Assembly (NCBI GenBank): GCA_028689835.1 | Contig: JAQVCK010000004.1 | Coordinates: 1-49,151, forward strand | Origin: Pygmaiobacter sp. | Lineage (GTDB): Bacteria; Bacillota; Clostridia; Oscillospirales; Ruminococcaceae | Direction: 5' to 3' | DNA length: 49,151 nt | Shown here: positions 21,749 through 37,397 of the stretch, piece by piece | How positions within the stretch are numbered: the stretch's first letter is position 1 | Layout of the letters: every line of letters begins with the position of its first letter | Made by a program: the position numbers and the translations under genes | The notes under the pieces: model-generated | Databases searched by the model: none | Told to the model about the DNA's origin: nothing | What the model saw: the letters and a program-made list of their open reading frames with translations, nothing else

Positions 21749-23557
21749 ATGAAAAAACTGTTTAGTATCCTGTTGTCGGCTGTTTTACTCATGGGCCTTG
21801 CGGGCTGTTCTTCCAGCTTGGCAGGGGCCTACCACGCCGGGACCTATACTGGTACCGGCACTGGCCGCAACGGTGAAATTACGGTGGAGGTGACGTTCAG
21901 TGACACCGCCATCACCAAAATAGAAGTAAAAGACCAGCAAGAAACCGCAGGCATTGCGGATGCCGCGTTGACCGAGCTGCCCCAGACGATTGTGGACACC
22001 CAAAGCCTTGGGGTTGCAGCCGTGGCAGGCGCCACCTACACCAGCAACGGCATTTTTGCAGCAGTGGCCGATGCCGTGACAAAGGCAGGCGGCGACGCCG
22101 ACAAGCTGAAAGAGACAAAACCTGTTCAAACGTCGTCTGAGGTGGTGGATAAAACCGCAGACGTAGTGGTCGTGGGCGGCGGCGGGGCCGGCATGGCCGC
22201 TGCGGTACGCTTGCAACAACTGGGTAAACAGGTTATTTTGGTGGAAAAATCGGGCGCCCTTGGCGGCACCATTGCCGTGAGCGGCGGCAATCAGGTCGTG
22301 ATGGGCAGTAAATTACAGGCCGAAGCCGGTGTCAGCGACGATTCGGTGGATTCAATGGTTGCCGATTTTATGAAAAACGGCAACAACCTAAACGTACCCG
22401 AACTGCTGAACCTGTATGCCGAAAACGTGGGCCCGGCTACCGACTGGCTAAACGAAAGCTGCAACGTGCAGTATGACATGGACGGCGGCCTGCACCACCT
22501 GGCCGAGTACAGCCATCACCGCGAGCTGGCTTACGAGGGCGGCGGCGCCGGGTTTGCGTCGGCCTTCCGCACTGCGGTTGAAAACTCCGGCGCAGAGGTG
22601 CTGCTAAACACCCGCGCAAAAAGTTTAAAGGTACAGGACGGTAAGGTCGTCGGCGTAACTGCTGTTGCGACAGACGGGATTACTTACGAGATCAAAGCCG
22701 GTGCCGTGGTGCTTGCCACCGGCGGCTACGGTGCGAACCAGGACCTACTTTCGGACGATTTAAAAAGTGCTTTGTACTATGGGCTGGACACCTCTACCGG
22801 GGATGGTATTGTGATGGCGACGGCAGACGACGTGGGTGCCGCCACCCGGTTGATGGAATACGGTAAGCGCTACCCCAATGGCATTGAGGTGTCGCAGGGC
22901 CGCGCCAAATCGACCATTGCCGGCAACATTGCAGGCTGGAACATGAGTGCAATTTTAGTAAACTCCACCGGCGAGCGGGTGGTCAACGAAAAGGCCAGCA
23001 ACCGCACGATTTTAGAGACCGAAGTGCAGCAGCCGGGCGGCATGCTGTATCTGCTTTTGGACCAGCAGACCTTTGACACCTGGAAAACGAAACTGACCGC
23101 GGCCGGCATTACCGAGGACGAGATCAACGGCTACCTTGCAAACAACGGCACCAGCACCCCTATTTTTGCGCATGGCGATACCCTTGCGGCGGTAGCCGGC
23201 GCGGTGGGCATGGATGCCAACACGCTGCAAAACACGGTAGCCACCTATAATAGTTATGTGGATACCGGGGTGGATGAAGCATTTGGCCGCCCGGCAGACT
23301 ATTTAAAGATGAAAATCGGCAACGGCCCGTATTATCTGGTGGAACAAAAACCCCGCTTTGCCACCACGATGGGCGGCCTTGTGGTCAACACCTCGTTGCA
23401 GGTACTGAATGCAAACGATGAGGCCATCGGCGGGCTATATGCCGCGGGTGAAGTAGTGGGCGGCGTGATGGGCGACGATTCACCGTCCGGCGCAAACAAC
23501 GGCTGGGCACTGACCTCCGGCAAACTGGCGGCAGAGGCCATTGCCGCGGCAAACTAA
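21749..23557 (+). CDS. Lipoprotein FMN_bind + FAD_binding_2 flavoprotein (fumarate/urocanate-reductase-like)
   Basis: Signal and lipobox MKKLFSILLSAVLLMGLAGC; FMN_bind motif AVAGATYTSNG; FAD-binding VVVVGGGGAGMAAAVRL; C-terminal GGLYAAGEVVGGVMGDDSPSGANNGWALTSGKLA. Confidence 0.93.
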   Translation: MKKLFSILLSAVLLMGLAGCSSSLAGAYHAGTYTGTGTGRNGEITVEVTFSDTAITKIEVKDQQETAGIADAALTELPQTIVDTQSLGVAAVAGATYTSNGIFAAVADAVTKAGGDADKLKETKPVQTSSEVVDKTADVVVVGGGGAGMAAAVRLQQLGKQVILVEKSGALGGTIAVSGGNQVVMGSKLQAEAGVSDDSVDSMVADFMKNGNNLNVPELLNLYAENVGPATDWLNESCNVQYDMDGGLHHLAEYSHHRELAYEGGGAGFASAFRTAVENSGAEVLLNTRAKSLKVQDGKVVGVTAVATDGITYEIKAGAVVLATGGYGANQDLLSDDLKSALYYGLDTSTGDGIVMATADDVGAATRLMEYGKRYPNGIEVSQGRAKSTIAGNIAGWNMSAILVNSTGERVVNEKASNRTILETEVQQPGGMLYLLLDQQTFDTWKTKLTAAGITEDEINGYLANNGTSTPIFAHGDTLAAVAGAVGMDANTLQNTVATYNSYVDTGVDEAFGRPADYLKMKIGNGPYYLVEQKPRFATTMGGLVVNTSLQVLNANDEAIGGLYAAGEVVGGVMGDDSPSGANNGWALTSGKLAAEAIAAAN

Positions 23558-29357: not shown

Positions 29358-30782
29358 TTATACCAACAGTGCCAAAGCCGCTTTCAACCCGTCACCGCGC
29401 TCAATGGCAGCCACTGCCGCGGCGCCGTTTTTCACTTCGCCCAGCATCAGTACACCCACCAGTTTGCCATTTTTCAGCGCCAGCTTGTGGTAAATGCCGG
29501 TCGTCTCGTCGTGCACAACCACGGTTTGCAATCGCTCGCCGTTCACGCTGCCCACTGCAAACAGGTTCATGCCGCCGCCCTCAAACGCGGTGGCCGGCAC
29601 CGGGGCATGGTACGCTGCGGCATCGCCGCACATTGCCGCACCCGCCGCGTTGCCCATATCCAGCGCGGCACCCCACAGGCCTGCCACGCGGCCCTCAAAT
29701 TCCGCACAGTCGCCTGCGGCAAAAATGTCGGGCGCGCTGGTGCGCATAGCGCCGTCCACCACAATGCCACGCCCGGTTTGCAGGCCCAGCTGTGCCGCCA
29801 GTGTCAGCTCGCTGCGGATGCCCGCGCTCACCAGCACAAAATCGGCATTCAACAATTCACCGTTTGAAAGATGAATGCCCTCGGCATCGACCTTTTGCAC
29901 CATCACACCGGTATAGATTTTCATGCCCAGCGACTTTAACCGGTTTTCAATCACGGTGCTGGCAAACTCGTCTGCCTGAATGCTCATCAGCCGCGCGGCC
30001 AGCTCTACAACGGTCACCTGCGCCCCCTGCTCACGCAGGGCAAGGGCTGCCTCCAGCCCCAAAATGCCGCCGCCTACCACGATGACACGGCTGCCCATGC
30101 GCACCGCAGAAAGCAGGGCCTGTGCATCTACATAGCTGCGCAGCACCCGCACCGGCACGCTGCCCGCCTCGCACTTTACCGGGCAAAAGGCGTTGGCGCC
30201 GGTGGCAAGTAGCAACTTGGCATAGGGCAACACTTTGCCGTTTGTCAGCGTGACGGTGTGCGCCGCAGCGTCTACCGTTTGTGCCTTTGCATCCAGTACC
30301 AGTTTAATATTTTGCTGTTTGTACCAGCTAAGTTCTTGTAATTCAATGGCCGAAAAGCTGTACCCGTCGGCCACCATGTCGGACAGGGCGGGCCGGTTGT
30401 ACGGGGGCACGCCCTCGCCACAGACCACCGTCACCTGTGCGGTGTGGTTGCGCTCACGGATGGCCTTTGCCGCCGCCAGCGCCGCGCCGCCGCCGCCGAT
30501 AATCACAAATTGTTCGTCGGTGTCGTTGCGGGCGGCAGCTTCAGTCTGTACACCCAGCGCCACAAACGCATCGGCCCCTGCGCCGCACACGGGGCAGGGC
30601 ACCGGGGGCTGTGCGCCCTCAAAAATCTGGCCGCACACGGTGCACTTCCACCGGGTGGGGGCGGCCTGCCCAATTTGCACAAAGGCATCGGCCCCTGCAC
30701 CACATACCGGGCAGGGCACCGGGGGCTCGGCCCCTTCAAAAATCTGGCCGCACACGGTGCAGCGCCACTTTTTTGTCTCCAT
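29358..30782 (-). CDS. NADH:rubredoxin oxidoreductase-type FAD enzyme with two N-terminal rubredoxin-like modules
   Basis: METKKWRCTVCGQIFEGAEPPVPCPVCGAGADAFVQIGQAAPTRWKCTVCGQIFEGAQPPVPCPVCGAGADAFV...FVIIGGGGAALAAAKAIRERN... Confidence 0.92.
   Translation of the reverse strand: METKKWRCTVCGQIFEGAEPPVPCPVCGAGADAFVQIGQAAPTRWKCTVCGQIFEGAQPPVPCPVCGAGADAFVALGVQTEAAARNDTDEQFVIIGGGGAALAAAKAIRERNHTAQVTVVCGEGVPPYNRPALSDMVADGYSFSAIELQELSWYKQQNIKLVLDAKAQTVDAAAHTVTLTNGKVLPYAKLLLATGANAFCPVKCEAGSVPVRVLRSYVDAQALLSAVRMGSRVIVVGGGILGLEAALALREQGAQVTVVELAARLMSIQADEFASTVIENRLKSLGMKIYTGVMVQKVDAEGIHLSNGELLNADFVLVSAGIRSELTLAAQLGLQTGRGIVVDGAMRTSAPDIFAAGDCAEFEGRVAGLWGAALDMGNAAGAAMCGDAAAYHAPVPATAFEGGGMNLFAVGSVNGERLQTVVVHDETTGIYHKLALKNGKLVGVLMLGEVKNGAAAVAAIERGDGLKAALALLV
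30546..30780 (-). repeat. Tandem duplication (period 117 bp = 39 aa) encoding the two rubredoxin-like modules
   Basis: AAAAATCTGGCCGCACACGGTGC at 30621 and at 30738; near-identical flanks. Confidence 0.85.
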
Positions 30783-30894
30783 TGACAACCTCCTTGAGTG
30801 CTACTATTTCAAACCACGTCCACCGGCAGGGGCCCTGCCGCGTGGCACACACCGCCGCGCACGACCCGGCGGCATTGCTTTTGTAAAATTTTAA

Positions 30895-31134: not shown

Positions 31135-32328
31135 TCAGGCTTTCATCGCCTTGGCAAAATCCACGCCAAACTGCACTGCACCCGCAAGCTGCTCTTCGCT
31201 GGGTTTCAGCCGCACGCGGTAACCCGCGGGCATCGGCACGTTCATTTTCAGCTGCTGCATGCGGGCCGTCAGGTTGGCCACCGCTTCGCCGCTCCAGCCA
31301 AAGCTGCCAAACGCGCCGCCAAATTTGCCCTTGTGGATAATGGGGTTCAGGTGCATCAGCATCTCATAAGCGGGGGGCAGTGCGTCGCCCACCATGGTCG
31401 GGGTGCCAAGCAAGATGCCGTCCGCCGTTTCCAGCGCGGCAATGGCTTTGTCTTTTTCGCCATAAACCAGGTCATACAACTCTGCCATCAGGCCCTCACT
31501 GCGCACGCCCTCGGCAATTTTTTCTGCCAGCTGGCGGGTATAGCCGTAAGAGGTGACATAGGGGATGACGACCTTTTTGGGGTCGTTGACGGCCGGCACC
31601 GTCCAGTCGCGGTACATTTTAAGGTAGTGTTCGATGTCGGTGCGCAGCACCGGGCCATGGCCGTTGCCGATAAATTCAATGGGCAGCCCCTCGATTTTTT
31701 GTAGCGCGTTTGCCATATGGGGGTTTTTGTACGGGCCCATGATGTTGTCGAAGTAATATTTGTACGCGTCCACAAAGTCGCCCTTGATCTCGTCGTTAAA
31801 CACCGCGTCGTCGGCATAGTGGCAGCCAAACACATCACAAGTAAACAGCGAGCGATATTCTGGGATCCAAGTGAACATCGTGTCAGGCCAGTGCAGCATC
31901 GGGGCCATAAAGAAATGCAGCGATGCGCCGCCGATGTCGATGACGTCTTTTTCGGTCACAACACGGTGGGGGAACGGCTCGTTGACAATCTCTTTGAGGA
32001 AGTTAATCGCGGCCATGCTGCCCAGCACGGTGGCCTTGGGGGCCAGCTTGATCATCTGGGCCAGAGAACCGGAGTGGTCCGGCTCGGTGTGGTCAAACAC
32101 GATGTAGTCAATGTCCGCGGGGTCGCACACCTCTTTGACCTTGGCCAGATGGTCGGCAAAGAACTTCTCCTTTACGGTCTCAAACAATACGGTCTTTTCG
32201 GTGCCCTTGACGATGTATGCATTATAAGTAGTACCATAGTCGGTATACATAATAATGTCGAAGATCCTCAAGTCTTTGTCCAGCGAGCCGACCCACCAGA
32301 TATTGTCTTTTGCTTTGAGTGCGTTCAT
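31135..32328 (-). CDS. Flavodiiron protein (FprA-type A-flavoprotein: MBL diiron + flavodoxin)
   Basis: MNALKAKDNIWWVGSLDKDLRIFDIIMYTDYGTTYNAYIVKG...FDHTEPDHSGS...PYVTSYGYTRQLAEKIAEG...LLGTPTMVGDALPPAYEML. Confidence 0.96.
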   Translation of the reverse strand: MNALKAKDNIWWVGSLDKDLRIFDIIMYTDYGTTYNAYIVKGTEKTVLFETVKEKFFADHLAKVKEVCDPADIDYIVFDHTEPDHSGSLAQMIKLAPKATVLGSMAAINFLKEIVNEPFPHRVVTEKDVIDIGGASLHFFMAPMLHWPDTMFTWIPEYRSLFTCDVFGCHYADDAVFNDEIKGDFVDAYKYYFDNIMGPYKNPHMANALQKIEGLPIEFIGNGHGPVLRTDIEHYLKMYRDWTVPAVNDPKKVVIPYVTSYGYTRQLAEKIAEGVRSEGLMAELYDLVYGEKDKAIAALETADGILLGTPTMVGDALPPAYEMLMHLNPIIHKGKFGGAFGSFGWSGEAVANLTARMQQLKMNVPMPAGYRVRLKPSEEQLAGAVQFGVDFAKAMKA

Positions 32329-32585
32329 CTGAATACTTCCTTTCCGCCTGCACGGTATGCACCGCGGGGGGCTGCCCCCCTGCGTTAAATTCTTGTCTAT
32401 TATTATATCACATATCATAACAAAAAAAGCCCCATTTTTGCAACGCCCAGCAAGATTGTAGGAAAAACTTTTGAAAAATTTTACCATGTGCGGTCACAGT
32501 TGCATTAAAATACCGCAAAAGGTGTGAAATTTATGTGTGCGGCACACCGCGCGGCGGCCCGGTGTGCCGGGCTTTAACAGCGCAA

Positions 32586-32781: not shown

Positions 32782-33432
32782 ATGGCTAAAGTCGCACCCT
32801 CTCTTCTCTCGGCAGATTTTGCCCACCTGGAACAGGACTGCCGCACCTGCCTTGACGCCGGCGCGGATTTTTTACATTTTGATGTAATGGACGGGCACTT
32901 TGTCCCGAATATCAGCTTTGGCGCGCCGGTGCTTGCCAGCATTGCCAAGGCCGTGCCCGCCTTTTACGACGTGCACCTGATGCTGACCGACCCGCTGGAG
33001 TATGTGCCGATGTTCCTCGACGCGGGCGCGTCGATGATCACCGTGCACCTTGAAGCAAACAGCCCCATCCGCGAAATGCTGGATGCCATCCATGCGGGCG
33101 GTGCAAAGGCCGGCATCGTGCTCAACCCCGACACCCCGGTGCAGCAGGCATTGCGCTGGCTGCCCGACGTGGAAATGGTATTGGTGATGAGCGTACAGCC
33201 CGGCTTTGGCGGGCAAAAATTCCGCCCCATCGCACTGGAAAAACTATCCGCCCTGCGCGCCGCCGCCGCAAAGGCCGGCCGCACCGACCTTCTTTTAGAG
33301 GTGGACGGCGGTGTTTCGCGTGAAACGTCGGGGCTGTGTGTGGCCGCCGGTGCCAACGTGCTGGTTGCGGGCTCTGCCGTATTTGGCGCTGCCGACCCCG
33401 CCGCCGAGATTGCATACTACAAAAGCCTGTAA
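32782..33432 (+). CDS. rpe: Ribulose-phosphate 3-epimerase
   Basis: MAKVAPSLLSADFAHLEQDCRTCLDAGADFLHFDVMDGHFVPNISFGAPVL...VMSVQPGFGGQKF...EVDGGV. Confidence 0.97.
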   Translation: MAKVAPSLLSADFAHLEQDCRTCLDAGADFLHFDVMDGHFVPNISFGAPVLASIAKAVPAFYDVHLMLTDPLEYVPMFLDAGASMITVHLEANSPIREMLDAIHAGGAKAGIVLNPDTPVQQALRWLPDVEMVLVMSVQPGFGGQKFRPIALEKLSALRAAAAKAGRTDLLLEVDGGVSRETSGLCVAAGANVLVAGSAVFGAADPAAEIAYYKSL

Positions 33433-33484: not shown

Positions 33485-34447
33485 ATGAAACAGGACGAAA
33501 AGAACCACCTGCCGCGCCATGCGGACTTTGCGCAAAACAGCGACATGCTGTTTGCGCTGTTCCCGCTGGCATTTATGGCAGTCTATCTTTACGGGCTGCG
33601 CCCGGCAGTGATGCTGGCGCTGGCGTTTTTTACCGCCTCTGTGTGCGACTTTTTTGTTGCAAAAATGCGCAGCCGGCGGTATGATGCCAGCGAAAACTCA
33701 TCGCTGGTATTTGCCGCGCTGTTTACGCTGATGTTGCCTGCTACCGCAAGCTATGCCATCGTTGTCACCGGCGTGGTGGTGGCGGTGCTGGTGGGCAAGC
33801 ACGCGTTTGGCGGGGCGGGCAGTTACCCGTTTCACCCCGCGGCGCTGGGCTATGCCGTTGTCACCGTCAGCTGGCCGGACCAGATTTTCCGCTACCCAAC
33901 CCCGTTTACCCATGTGGGCCTGTGGGACACCAGTGCCGCTTCGCTGGAGGACGCGTCCTCCCACATTTTGCGCACCGGCGGCGTGCCCAACATCCCCTCG
34001 CTGGATTTGACGCTGGGCAACTATGCCGGGCCAATGGGCACCACCTTTGTACTGGTAATCGTGGCGGTGGCCCTTTATCTGTTGCTGCGCCGCCGCATTT
34101 CGCTGGATTTGCCGCTGGCGTTTCTCGCCACCAGCGCCTTGATTAGCGTCTTGTTTCCGCGGGTTGCCACGGCGGGTATCTTTGAACTGATGAAATACGA
34201 GCTGTTGTCCGGCGCACTATTGTACACCGCCGTATTTTTGCTGTGCGAGCCCTCCACCGCCCCCAAAAACCGGCTGGCGCGGGTGGTGTATGGCATACTG
34301 ACCGGCTTTTTGACGATGATGTTCCGCTATTACGGCGCCTACGAGCTGGGCGTCTGCTTTGCACTGCTGCTGGCCAATGCGTTCAGCGGTTACCTTGACC
34401 GCGTGTGCAGCAAGGCCGCCTTTCAAAGGAGGTCGAAGTCATTATGA
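33485..34447 (+). CDS. RnfD/NqrB-like membrane protein
   Basis: ...DMLFALFPLAFMAVYLYGLRPAVMLALAFF...FHPAALGYAVVTVSWPDQI...LDLTLGNYAGPMGTT... Confidence 0.85.
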   Translation: MKQDEKNHLPRHADFAQNSDMLFALFPLAFMAVYLYGLRPAVMLALAFFTASVCDFFVAKMRSRRYDASENSSLVFAALFTLMLPATASYAIVVTGVVVAVLVGKHAFGGAGSYPFHPAALGYAVVTVSWPDQIFRYPTPFTHVGLWDTSAASLEDASSHILRTGGVPNIPSLDLTLGNYAGPMGTTFVLVIVAVALYLLLRRRISLDLPLAFLATSALISVLFPRVATAGIFELMKYELLSGALLYTAVFLLCEPSTAPKNRLARVVYGILTGFLTMMFRYYGAYELGVCFALLLANAFSGYLDRVCSKAAFQRRSKSL

Positions 34448-35091
34448 CACAGGAGAACAGCAAGTATCTGGCCGAAAATATCGACCGCTTGATGCGGCGG
34501 GACCGCATTTTTTTGAACAACCCTGTGTTTATGCAGGGCCTTGGCCTTGCCCCCATTGTGGTGGCAGCCACCACATTGCACAATGCACTGGTGCTGGGCC
34601 TTGGCGTGTTGTTGCTGCTTACCCCCACCCGCTTGCTTGCGGCCATGGTGTGCCGTGGGCGCTGGCCGCGGTTTCGCGGCGTGGCCTATGCACTGACCGC
34701 CGCGGTGGTGTACATCGGCGTATGGTTTGCTGAAAACGCGCTGTTTGGTGTGGGCATGCAAACGGTGGGCCTGTACCTGCCGTTGCTGGTGGTAGAACCC
34801 ATTATTTTAAAGAGGTACGAGCGCGCCCAGCCCGAGCGCCTTGGCACTGCCGTGCGCAAGGGGCTGGTGACCACCTTTGGCTTTTTGTTGGCCCTGTTGC
34901 TGATTGCGGCATTGCGTGAACTGCTGGGCGCTGGTACCTTGTTGGGGTATGTGGTGACCAACCACCCGCTATTGCCCATGGCACAGCTTGTTTCCGGCGG
35001 GTTTATTTTTGTAGGTGTTTTGGCTGCGGCCTGGCGCTGGATGCGCAATGTGATTAAGCGCATCGTAAGCATGGAGGCGAACCTGAAATGA
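34444..35091 (+). CDS. RnfE/NqrD-like membrane protein
   Basis: ...RDRIFLNNPVFMQGLGLAPIVVAATTLHNALVLGLGVLLLL...LPLLVVEPIILKRYERA... Confidence 0.82.
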   Translation: MTQENSKYLAENIDRLMRRDRIFLNNPVFMQGLGLAPIVVAATTLHNALVLGLGVLLLLTPTRLLAAMVCRGRWPRFRGVAYALTAAVVYIGVWFAENALFGVGMQTVGLYLPLLVVEPIILKRYERAQPERLGTAVRKGLVTTFGFLLALLLIAALRELLGAGTLLGYVVTNHPLLPMAQLVSGGFIFVGVLAAAWRWMRNVIKRIVSMEANLK

Positions 35092-35687
35092 CAATAGTAG
35101 AACCAATCCTCACGTTTTTCTTTTATGCCATTGTTGCCATTGCGGCGCAAAACGCCATTTTTACCCGTGCACTGGGCGTGTCGCGGCTGGTCAAAATTGT
35201 GGATGACGGCTCGGTAGAGCTGTTTAAATTTGGTGCCTTGCTCACTGCGGTGCAGCTGATTAGCAGCCTGTTGAGCTTTTTTGCGGGCCGTGCGCTGCCG
35301 TACAAAGCGGCCTTTTTGCCGCTGGTACTGGTATTGTGCAGCGCCATTGCGTTTTTTATTGTGCTGCTGGTGCTGGTGCTGCCCAAAAAGCGCGCGCTGG
35401 CCAAAGATTATCTCTCCCTGCTGCCCATGGCTACCTTTAATTGCAGCATTTTGGGCACCCTGCTACTCACCTCTACCGGTGGGTACACACTGTTGCAATC
35501 AATGGGCTTTTCACTGGGCAGCGCGTTGGGTTATGTGCTGGCCGTCGTGCTGGTTAACGAGGGGCAACGCAAAATTCAAAACCGCGGTGTGCCCGCTACT
35601 TTTCGCGGGTTGCCAATCACACTACTTTATATTGGTGTTCTGGCGCTTGCTATTTATGGGTTTTCTGGGCATACGCCCGCCATTTAA
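35088..35687 (+). CDS. RnfA/NqrE-like membrane protein
   Basis: ...AQNAIFTRALGVSRLVK...LLPMATFNCSILGTLLLTSTGGYTLLQSMGFSLGSALGYVLAVVL; ATGA overlap with upstream gene. Confidence 0.82.
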   Translation: MTIVEPILTFFFYAIVAIAAQNAIFTRALGVSRLVKIVDDGSVELFKFGALLTAVQLISSLLSFFAGRALPYKAAFLPLVLVLCSAIAFFIVLLVLVLPKKRALAKDYLSLLPMATFNCSILGTLLLTSTGGYTLLQSMGFSLGSALGYVLAVVLVNEGQRKIQNRGVPATFRGLPITLLYIGVLALAIYGFSGHTPAI

Positions 35688-35745: not shown

Positions 35746-36903
35746 GTGTTGAAAAAAAGCAGACCTGTCAAAATCAAGCGCTATCGGCGCAGCTTTTCCG
35801 GCTCTGGCGCAAAGAAAAACCTCGCCCGCCGTATCTTGCTTTGGGTGGTGATTCTTGGTGCGGTGTTTGGCATAGGCTGGCTGGTTGCAAAACCGGGGCT
35901 GGACCTCGCATCCGGCTTGTGGTACCGGTATAAAAACGGGGGTGGCGCACCCTCCTCGCAGGCGGCAAACTCCACCCCCGCGGCATCCTCTTCTCAGCCG
36001 CAGCCTGCTTCTACCGAAACCCCGCAACCCACACCGGCCCCTGCCGCAAACGGGATGGGCGGCTGGGCCATGGTCGCTTTAAGCGAAGCGGACACGCCGG
36101 AGAAAGCCACCGCACTGGCCGCGCAACTGCAAGCGCAGGGGGTAACCTACGTTGTGCTGCCGCTGAAAGACGACCGCGGTTACCTGTATTACAACTCCGC
36201 GTTGCCCTTGGCGCAAAAATCCATTGCGGCCACCACCGTCGACGCGGCGGCCATTGCCAGCGCCTTGCGCAATGCGGGGGTCACCCCGGTGGCGGGGCTG
36301 TGCGCCTTTAAAGACAGCCTTGTGCCGTTTGTCGACCGCACAACAGCCGTCAAATACAACAATCAGGACATCACTTGGCTGGACACCTCGAAAGAGCTGG
36401 GTGGCAAGGCGTGGCTGAACCCCAACTCCCCGGTGGCACAGCAGTATATCACCGACTTGATTGGCGAAGTGAAGGGCCTTGGCTTTGACACGGTGCTGCT
36501 GCAAAACCTGCAATTCCCCGAGGGCACCGGGCTGAACCTTGCAAGCTACGGCGCGATGGCCGGCACCAAAGAGCAGTTACTGGCACAACTGGGCCAGCAA
36601 TATCAGGGCATCGACGGGGTGAGTGTGTGGTTTGAATTCCCCGCCGCCGCAGTGCGCGGCGAGATGGCCAGCAGCTACGGCGCGTCGCCCGCCACCTTTG
36701 GGTTGCAACGCGTGTTTGTGCGGCTGGACGATGCGGCGCTGTCCGACAGCACCGGGCTTGCCGGGCTGCTTTCGCCGTTTGTCAGCGGCGGGGCAACGGG
36801 CTTTGGCGTGCGCGGTGTTTCCGGCAGCACGCCCGAGGCGCTGGCGGTGGTCAACGACGCCGCAAAGCAGGCCGGGTTTACCAGTTATTTTGTCATTCCC
36901 TAG
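35746..36903 (+). CDS. Membrane-anchored DUF4015-like putative glycoside hydrolase-fold protein
   Basis: N-terminal TM (ILLWVVILGAVFGIGWLV), S/P/Q-rich linker, then YVVLPLKDDRGYLYY...FKDSLVPF...WLNPNSPVAQQYITDLIGEVKGLGFDTVLLQNLQFPEG. Confidence 0.75.
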   Translation: MLKKSRPVKIKRYRRSFSGSGAKKNLARRILLWVVILGAVFGIGWLVAKPGLDLASGLWYRYKNGGGAPSSQAANSTPAASSSQPQPASTETPQPTPAPAANGMGGWAMVALSEADTPEKATALAAQLQAQGVTYVVLPLKDDRGYLYYNSALPLAQKSIAATTVDAAAIASALRNAGVTPVAGLCAFKDSLVPFVDRTTAVKYNNQDITWLDTSKELGGKAWLNPNSPVAQQYITDLIGEVKGLGFDTVLLQNLQFPEGTGLNLASYGAMAGTKEQLLAQLGQQYQGIDGVSVWFEFPAAAVRGEMASSYGASPATFGLQRVFVRLDDAALSDSTGLAGLLSPFVSGGATGFGVRGVSGSTPEALAVVNDAAKQAGFTSYFVIP

Positions 36904-36944: not shown

Positions 36945-37397
36945 GTGTTTGTGCGAAGTGCGAAAGAAGAGGACCTTGACGGCTTGTACGATTTGTGCTG
37001 CGAGCAGGCGGCCCGCGTATTGCCGCGCGATGTGTTTGAGGCGGTGTTTCGCGCCGCAACAAAAGACACCCACCGCCGCTTAGTGGTGGCAATTGAGGAC
37101 GAGCAGATTGTTGGGTATGCCGACATGCAGCTCTCGCTGTTGCTGTCCCACTGCGCGCTTGCCGCGGTGTTCAACGAGTTTTATGTGCGTGAGGCACTGC
37201 GCGGCCACGGCATTGGCACCGGTATGCTGTTGTCGCTGTCACGGCAGGCACAGTCCATTGGCTGTGGCGAGTTGCAGGCCTTTTGCCAGCGGGTCAATTT
37301 AAAAAGCCAGTCTTTTTTAGAGCGGCACGGCTTTGTGCGCAGCCAGCACAACTTTACAAAATCCATTGAACCACTGCAGAACAGCACTGCTGTTTGA
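36945..37397 (+). CDS. GNAT-family N-acetyltransferase
   Basis: MFVRSAKEEDLDGLYDLC...FNEFYVREALRGHGIGTGMLLSLSRQAQSIGC... Confidence 0.85.
   Translation: MFVRSAKEEDLDGLYDLCCEQAARVLPRDVFEAVFRAATKDTHRRLVVAIEDEQIVGYADMQLSLLLSHCALAAVFNEFYVREALRGHGIGTGMLLSLSRQAQSIGCGELQAFCQRVNLKSQSFLERHGFVRSQHNFTKSIEPLQNSTAV

Follow-up and report, generated by a model that had tools for sequence, protein, structure and literature searches.

A cofactor-stripped RnfD-RnfE-RnfA trio in Pygmaiobacter and related Oscillospirales

A trio of membrane proteins homologous to RnfD, RnfE and RnfA, encoded in Pygmaiobacter and its relatives, has lost the known cofactor ligands of Rnf, and the reading that we prefer, with a probability of about 55%, is that of a dedicated, electron-free membrane complex derived from the Rnf core, for which both assembly and a redox-independent conduit for an ion or solute are inferred. 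The Rnf complex (RnfABCDGE) is a ferredoxin:NAD+ oxidoreductase that acts as an ion pump. Its RnfD-RnfE-RnfA core would here have become a membrane complex in its own right from which electron transport has been lost, with D, E and A presumed to be assembled still as in Rnf, the assembly letting Na+, H+ or a small solute pass independently of any redox reaction, and the conduit possibly serving an envelope module with a membrane-anchored DUF4015 TIM-barrel protein. Electron transfer is very probably not what the trio does, and we regard it as highly likely that it is not a redox enzyme. D, E and A quite likely form a complex, for which no complex formation was measured; that this complex conducts an ion or solute is an evenly balanced proposition in the absence of any transport or binding measurement, and a functional tie of the trio to the envelope remains doubtful. 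A redox-divergent Rnf-derived complex had been proposed in the sequence-only reading of this DNA, and the lineage-wide losses of FMN, Fe-S and riboflavin ligands strongly support it; the transport-only role suggested there is plausible but not shown.

The D-E-A locus and its cofactor ligand positions

The window, a stretch of 49,151 nucleotides that makes up contig C138 of a Pygmaiobacter MAG (2.73 Mb, 94.7% complete, 4.6% contaminated), carries the locus on its + strand. The ribulose-phosphate 3-epimerase gene rpe (32782..33432; PF00834, E 1e-69) is followed by the genes for D, a RnfD/NqrB-like membrane protein of 320 aa without flavin ligands (33485..34447; PF03116, E 5e-65), E, a RnfE/NqrD-like membrane protein of 215 aa counted from its ATG (34444..35091; PF02508, E 6e-26), and A, a RnfA/NqrE-like membrane protein of 199 aa (35088..35687; PF02508, E 1e-17). 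Downstream are a DUF4015 protein composed of one N-terminal transmembrane helix and a TIM-barrel domain (35746..36903; PF13200, E 1e-14) and a GNAT acetyltransferase (36945..37397; PF00583, E 3e-12), which follows the DUF4015 gene in Pygmaiobacter and some relatives (a cluster of 20 loci). Both internal junctions are ATGA overlaps that place the start codon of E in the stop of D and the start codon of A in the stop of E, and GGAGG-type ribosome sites precede E and A. No rnfB, rnfC or rnfG was found in the flanks of the trio. The three overlapping RnfD/E/A-like genes, the rpe and DUF4015-like flanks and the absence of flanking RnfC, RnfG and RnfB, all inferred earlier from the letters alone, were thus borne out by the open reading frames, the Pfam matches and the gene overlaps.

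The PF03116 and PF02508 matches are well above the family cut-offs, which meets the requirement for superfamily-level homology. Scores against the NCBIfam models are lower than their cut-offs for D (TIGR01946 rnfD, 168 bits, cut-off 207), E (TIGR01948 rnfE, 74 bits, cut-off 213) and A (TIGR01943 rnfA, 69 bits, cut-off 229); canonical RnfD proteins reach 251–291 bits with TIGR01946, and those of the window's own genome 251–279. E matches the 7zc6_E chain in a profile search (E 2e-19), and A matches 7zc6_A in phmmer (E 2e-17).

Ligand positions were fixed by alignment to the solved chains of 7zc6, 9eri, 8ahx and 7xk3. The loop of D expected to bear the covalent FMN (residues 141–164; 33905..33976) reads FTHVGLWDTSAASLEDASSHILRT, as had been noted, with Ala in the column of A. 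woodii T156, and no GAT occurs anywhere in the protein. The riboflavin ligands of NqrB, T162, N200, N203 and D346 (PMC9325719), are replaced in D by F75, Y114, H117 and E255; by column counts the codons for Y114–H117 (33824..33835) span the positions of Asn200 and Asn203, which are N120 and N123 in A. woodii RnfD, where N123 and D249 are the riboflavin ligands (PMC11889175). One of the four [2Fe-2S] cysteines is left. In E, A36 (34549..34551) stands in place of A. woodii RnfE C25 and P119 (34798..34800), within VVEP, in place of C108; both columns are non-Cys in 96/96 reduced loci, and the second is Pro in 73/86 DEA loci. In A, S32 (35181..35183) takes the place of RnfA C25, as a non-Cys residue does in all reduced loci, and C119 (35442..35444), equivalent to A. 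woodii RnfA C113, is the single cysteine retained; this column is Cys in 35 of the 96 reduced loci and mostly Thr or Ser in the others. The peptides from which the losses had been read, LGLAP and VVEPIILKRYER in E and RALGVSRLVK in A with only its second Cys (FNCSILG), are present, and the losses hold in the comparison with structurally characterized Nqr and Rnf subunits. An alignment shift as the source of the missing ligands was ruled out by these PDB-anchored alignments together with the 96 loci. When the AE1 ([2Fe-2S]) cysteines or the riboflavin ligands of A. woodii Rnf are mutated, growth and activity are abolished (PMC11889175); because these essential ligands are missing here, the known Rnf chemistry is unavailable to the trio.

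Conservation and stepwise reduction of the lineage

The search covered 61 related genomes, 72 named loci and 119 family genomes. In about 84 of these 119, the encoded D scores at least 276 bits against a reduced-type profile, for which the L065 copy served as the full-type control (263 bits), and several D proteins below 276 bits (L183, L195 and L196) are also reduced on reading. In a degenerate-pattern search the 25-row D alignment offered no sufficiently conserved stretch, and the E alignment was usable. Faecalibacterium prausnitzii, Gemmiger, Subdoligranulum, Fournierella, Ruthenibacterium and Anaerofilum are among the named holders. The two E cysteines and the first A cysteine are gone from 96/96 distinct reduced loci, leaving at most one cysteine in each, a recurrence far beyond chance. 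The order rpe-D-E-A-DUF4015 is found in most reduced loci (Faecalibacterium, Gemmiger, Subdoligranulum, Fournierella and others); rpe lies 5' of nearly all of them, and the DUF4015 neighbour is absent from some. Purifying selection on the trio is evident from dN/dS values of 0.05–0.32 for all three genes in every pair where the ratio could be computed, and these values together with the intact frames rule out a sequencing artefact or pseudogene. An SGAT in the D of some Faecalibacterium (YELVSGATLYSA) was discounted, since it lies at a different position, in a helix.

Three states of the gene cluster were found. The full state is seen at L059, where rpe, C, D, G, E, A, B and DUF4015 lie on one strand, and at L068 and L169, where a complete rnf operon is followed by DUF4015. 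In the intermediate state (L044, L046–L054, L173, L182 and L185–L188) an RnfC-like gene precedes D, without G and B, and in the final state only D-E-A is left. The intermediate RnfC-like proteins that were examined keep both CxxCxxCxxxC ([4Fe-4S]) motifs and have lost the FMN loop GxGGAGFPT (e.g., DERDGVPL); AECEPY is altered in most of them, and the FMN/NAD site is lost. RnfC is the acceptor of the riboflavin electrons. Every full locus (47/47) and every locus with an RnfC-like gene (16/16) retains intact riboflavin ligands, against only 4/99 without C, the exceptions being L043, L045 and two streamlined genomes. This suggests that the riboflavin pocket decayed after RnfC was lost, though the counts are not phylogenetically independent, given the shared ancestry of the loci. 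A separate locus, L062:8122-10923, from a genome of the same order (G052), carries C-D-B without G, E and A and is thus a complementary Rnf subset; the glycine loop of its RnfC is changed and its D loop contains TPT, and it is possibly a different reduced Rnf.

The first tree derives the reduced lineage from the full operon that occupies the rpe slot. With RnfC added, the canonical clusters form one clade (support 100), outside which the reduced C-D-E-A loci form a second (99). An AU test does not reject a grouping of the reduced lineage with the other full Rnf lineage (p 0.62; p 0.52 with RnfC added), so that an origin from the rpe/DUF4015-slot operon rests on synteny alone; the shared flanks favour it, and the trees leave it unresolved. 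The proposed link to rpe and DUF4015 is real, with a conserved gene order, and because full rnf operons share the DUF4015 flank and, at L059, the rpe flank in the same upstream place, this context is probably older than the losses.

Fold, ion path and alternative explanations

The AF2 model of D (pLDDT 94.8) superimposes on RnfD from 9eri/8ahx with a TM of 0.82; urea transporters and Rh/Amt proteins come next, with TM values of about 0.3–0.5 (UT-B, E 2.7e-3), a kinship of RnfD already published (PMC12174285). At the constriction positions F338 and F342 of NqrB, 86/86 and 85/86 D-E-A loci, respectively, have an aromatic residue. R67 of A. woodii RnfE, which has been placed in the Na+ site with E115 as its partner and is required for autotrophic growth, is kept in 80/86 DEA loci; E115 is kept in 57/86 and is Gly in 20/86. 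RnfA E88 and T111 are altered in the trio. With the frequent Gly at E115 and the changes at E88 and T111, the Na+ path known from A. woodii Rnf is not retained in full, which counts against a conduit. RnfA K32, R154 and E158, which contact the RnfB ferredoxin domain, are mostly changed, and Phe, Tyr, His and Glu now fill the cofactor pocket of D. Since ion-path residues are partly kept while redox and RnfB-docking residues are gone, we favour the cofactor-free conduit with moderate confidence. It also has against it two streamlined genomes that retain D and E only, at odds with an obligatory E-A dimer, and the dispute over Na+ conduction by RnfD even in Rnf (PMC11889175 vs PMC9588780). A more specific scheme, which we regard as speculative and unlikely to hold in full, is a stepwise loss of the input (B and G), the membrane cofactors, the output flavin and finally RnfC and riboflavin, leaving a cofactor-free conduit in an envelope operon of Oscillospirales that dominate in the gut, with D as an Amt/urea-transporter-like channel that has an aromatic gate and His, Tyr and Glu in the old riboflavin pocket.

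The main rival to the conduit, possible but less well supported, is a structural or regulatory pseudo-enzyme that transports nothing and serves as a membrane scaffold, for instance one anchoring or controlling the DUF4015 envelope enzyme or the WalRK-like/HtrA module found 5' of rpe in many relatives. The conserved DUF4015 neighbourhood speaks for it, as does the AF2 model of the DUF4015 protein, for which the best match is 4s1a, followed by Cwp19 (5oq3/5oq2), the Cwp19 domain being a lytic transglycosylase of C. difficile (PMC6016235). DUF4015 domains are sometimes fused to YkyA domains, which in other proteins are joined to polysaccharide deacetylases (PMC12700454). Near 66/111 loci a histidine kinase and a response regulator are encoded as a pair, mostly directly 5' of rpe, and near about 20 an HtrA-type protease, though not in the window; the pair is closest to the WalK and MtrA/YycF models, below their cut-offs, with a regulator of the OmpR family. 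The replacement of every pocket ligand also speaks for a scaffold. Against this, no kinase/regulator pair adjoins the window trio, DUF4015 also follows the redox-competent full rnf operons (L059, L068 and L169), so the pairing predates the losses, and a role beyond scaffolding is suggested by R67, the gate and the intramembrane glycines, which are conserved. The neighbours hint at an envelope function, which is not shown.

Examples of a WalK-like kinase and an OmpR-family regulator upstream of rpe are found at L104:5593-7080 and L039:12678-13370. Elsewhere in the window, about 10 kb 5' of the trio, a protein of 602 aa that bears an FMN_bind domain (21749-23557; PF04205, 55.9 bits) is likely an extracytosolic flavoprotein and apparently unrelated to the trio. 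The segment 29358-32487, divergent from rpe, encodes an ODP/flavodiiron-type protein (31135-32334) and an NADH oxidoreductase with two N-terminal rubredoxin-like domains (29358-30788), likely an O2/NO detoxification pair.

Continued redox activity with non-covalent or alternative cofactors, such as a non-covalent flavin in D or a quinone, is improbable. The C-D-E-A relatives retain the full set of riboflavin ligands and the two RnfC [4Fe-4S] motifs, so that electrons could take a short path there from riboflavin to [4Fe-4S], and one member, L038, alone among reduced-type D proteins, has SGAT inside the FMN loop (L038:7419-8429, VGFDSGATLYSG). In the D-E-A loci, including the window, the T162, N200 and N203 positions are however mostly Phe, Tyr and His, RnfC is gone and no Fe-S ligand set is left. 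Several genomes bearing the system moreover lack RnfG-type proteins and ApbE. In G042 (98% complete, C-D-E-A), G121 (1.0 Mb), G108 (0.9 Mb) and G094 (0.7 Mb), all of which keep a reduced D, a search for apbE, as the sequence-only reading had advised, gave none, and neither FMN_bind/RnfG nor a canonical rnf cluster was detected within the limits of draft-genome completeness. ApbE-type covalent flavinylation is not expected in these four, as ApbE and FMN_bind are absent. In G094 and G108 (L181, L183, L202 and L203) the reduced D and E lie at separate places away from rpe, and A, C, G and B were not found; E adjoins efp from upstream in both genomes, with a shikimate-kinase-like gene intervening in G094.

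A partner switch, in which D-E-A would use RnfB, RnfC and RnfG from canonical clusters elsewhere in the genome, was among the earlier proposals and now appears very improbable. A complete CDGEAB cluster does occur elsewhere in most trio-bearing genomes, and the second canonical rnf that the sequence-only reading had advised looking for in the window's genome exists as two clusters, on contigs C203 (L007) and C144 (L008). These clusters bring their own D, E and A, any electron path through the trio would miss all membrane cofactors, most RnfA residues that contact RnfB have been lost, and G042, G094, G108 and G121 have no canonical cluster to draw on. The RnfB of C203 has an open frame of only 103 aa. 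The C144 cluster groups with Faecalibacterium/Fournierella copies and not with P. massiliensis, and may on that ground be contamination or a transfer.

A functionless, decaying remnant of a duplicated rnf operon, which the serial loss of genes and ligands might suggest, is scarcely credible given dN/dS well below 1 in every computable pair, intact overlapping frames in dozens of species and retention in genomes of 0.7–1.0 Mb without a canonical complex.

Significance and comparison with known systems

Many common gut bacteria, including Faecalibacterium prausnitzii, thus keep a cofactor-stripped Rnf core, an old energy machine apparently rebuilt, probably for transport. How electron and ion transfer are coupled in Rnf and Nqr, and whether the ion route runs via RnfD/NqrB or via RnfA-RnfE, is disputed (PMC12174285, PMC11889175, PMC9588780). 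A natural Rnf core that is under selection and free of cofactors makes the ion-path question separable from the redox chemistry, with the C-D-E-A relatives as intermediate steps. The Rnf-like trio genes of Faecalibacterium, Gemmiger and their relatives should not be counted as an energy-conserving Rnf in gut metabolic models. No published account of a D-E-A-only, cofactor-free Rnf core was found in the open-licence literature, and a description that we have not seen is possible.

Compared with the Rnf complexes of A. woodii (9eri) and C. tetanomorphum (7zc6), the trio is homologous over most of the length of D, E and A, shares the RnfD fold and occupies the same rpe/DUF4015 slot as the full operon of L059, but it lacks RnfB, RnfC and RnfG, the covalent FMN site, the [2Fe-2S] cysteine set and the riboflavin ligands, and its proteins fall below the NCBIfam rnfD, rnfE and rnfA cut-offs. 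Na+-NQR has the same membrane core (NqrB/D/E), with the F338/F342 constriction positions aromatic in the trio as well, whereas the trio locus has no NqrA, NqrC, NqrF, flavin threonine or Fe-S ligands, and D aligns only from about NqrB residue 135 on, so that the N-terminal quinone-site region is missing. The urea and ammonium transporters (UT-B, Rh and AmtB) are the next-best fold neighbours of D after RnfD/NqrB, but with TM values of 0.33–0.48 and about 11% identity D is not a member of that family. The nearest published system is the two-subunit Nqr/Rnf-like type (Meheust et al. 2021, PMC8238504; PMC10979944), which likewise has an RnfD/NqrB homologue without the FMN threonine. In those systems D carries a fused NAD-binding PF00175 domain and has an FMN_bind partner for electron export, whereas D of the trio consists of PF03116 only, no FMN_bind is encoded in the locus, and E and A are kept.
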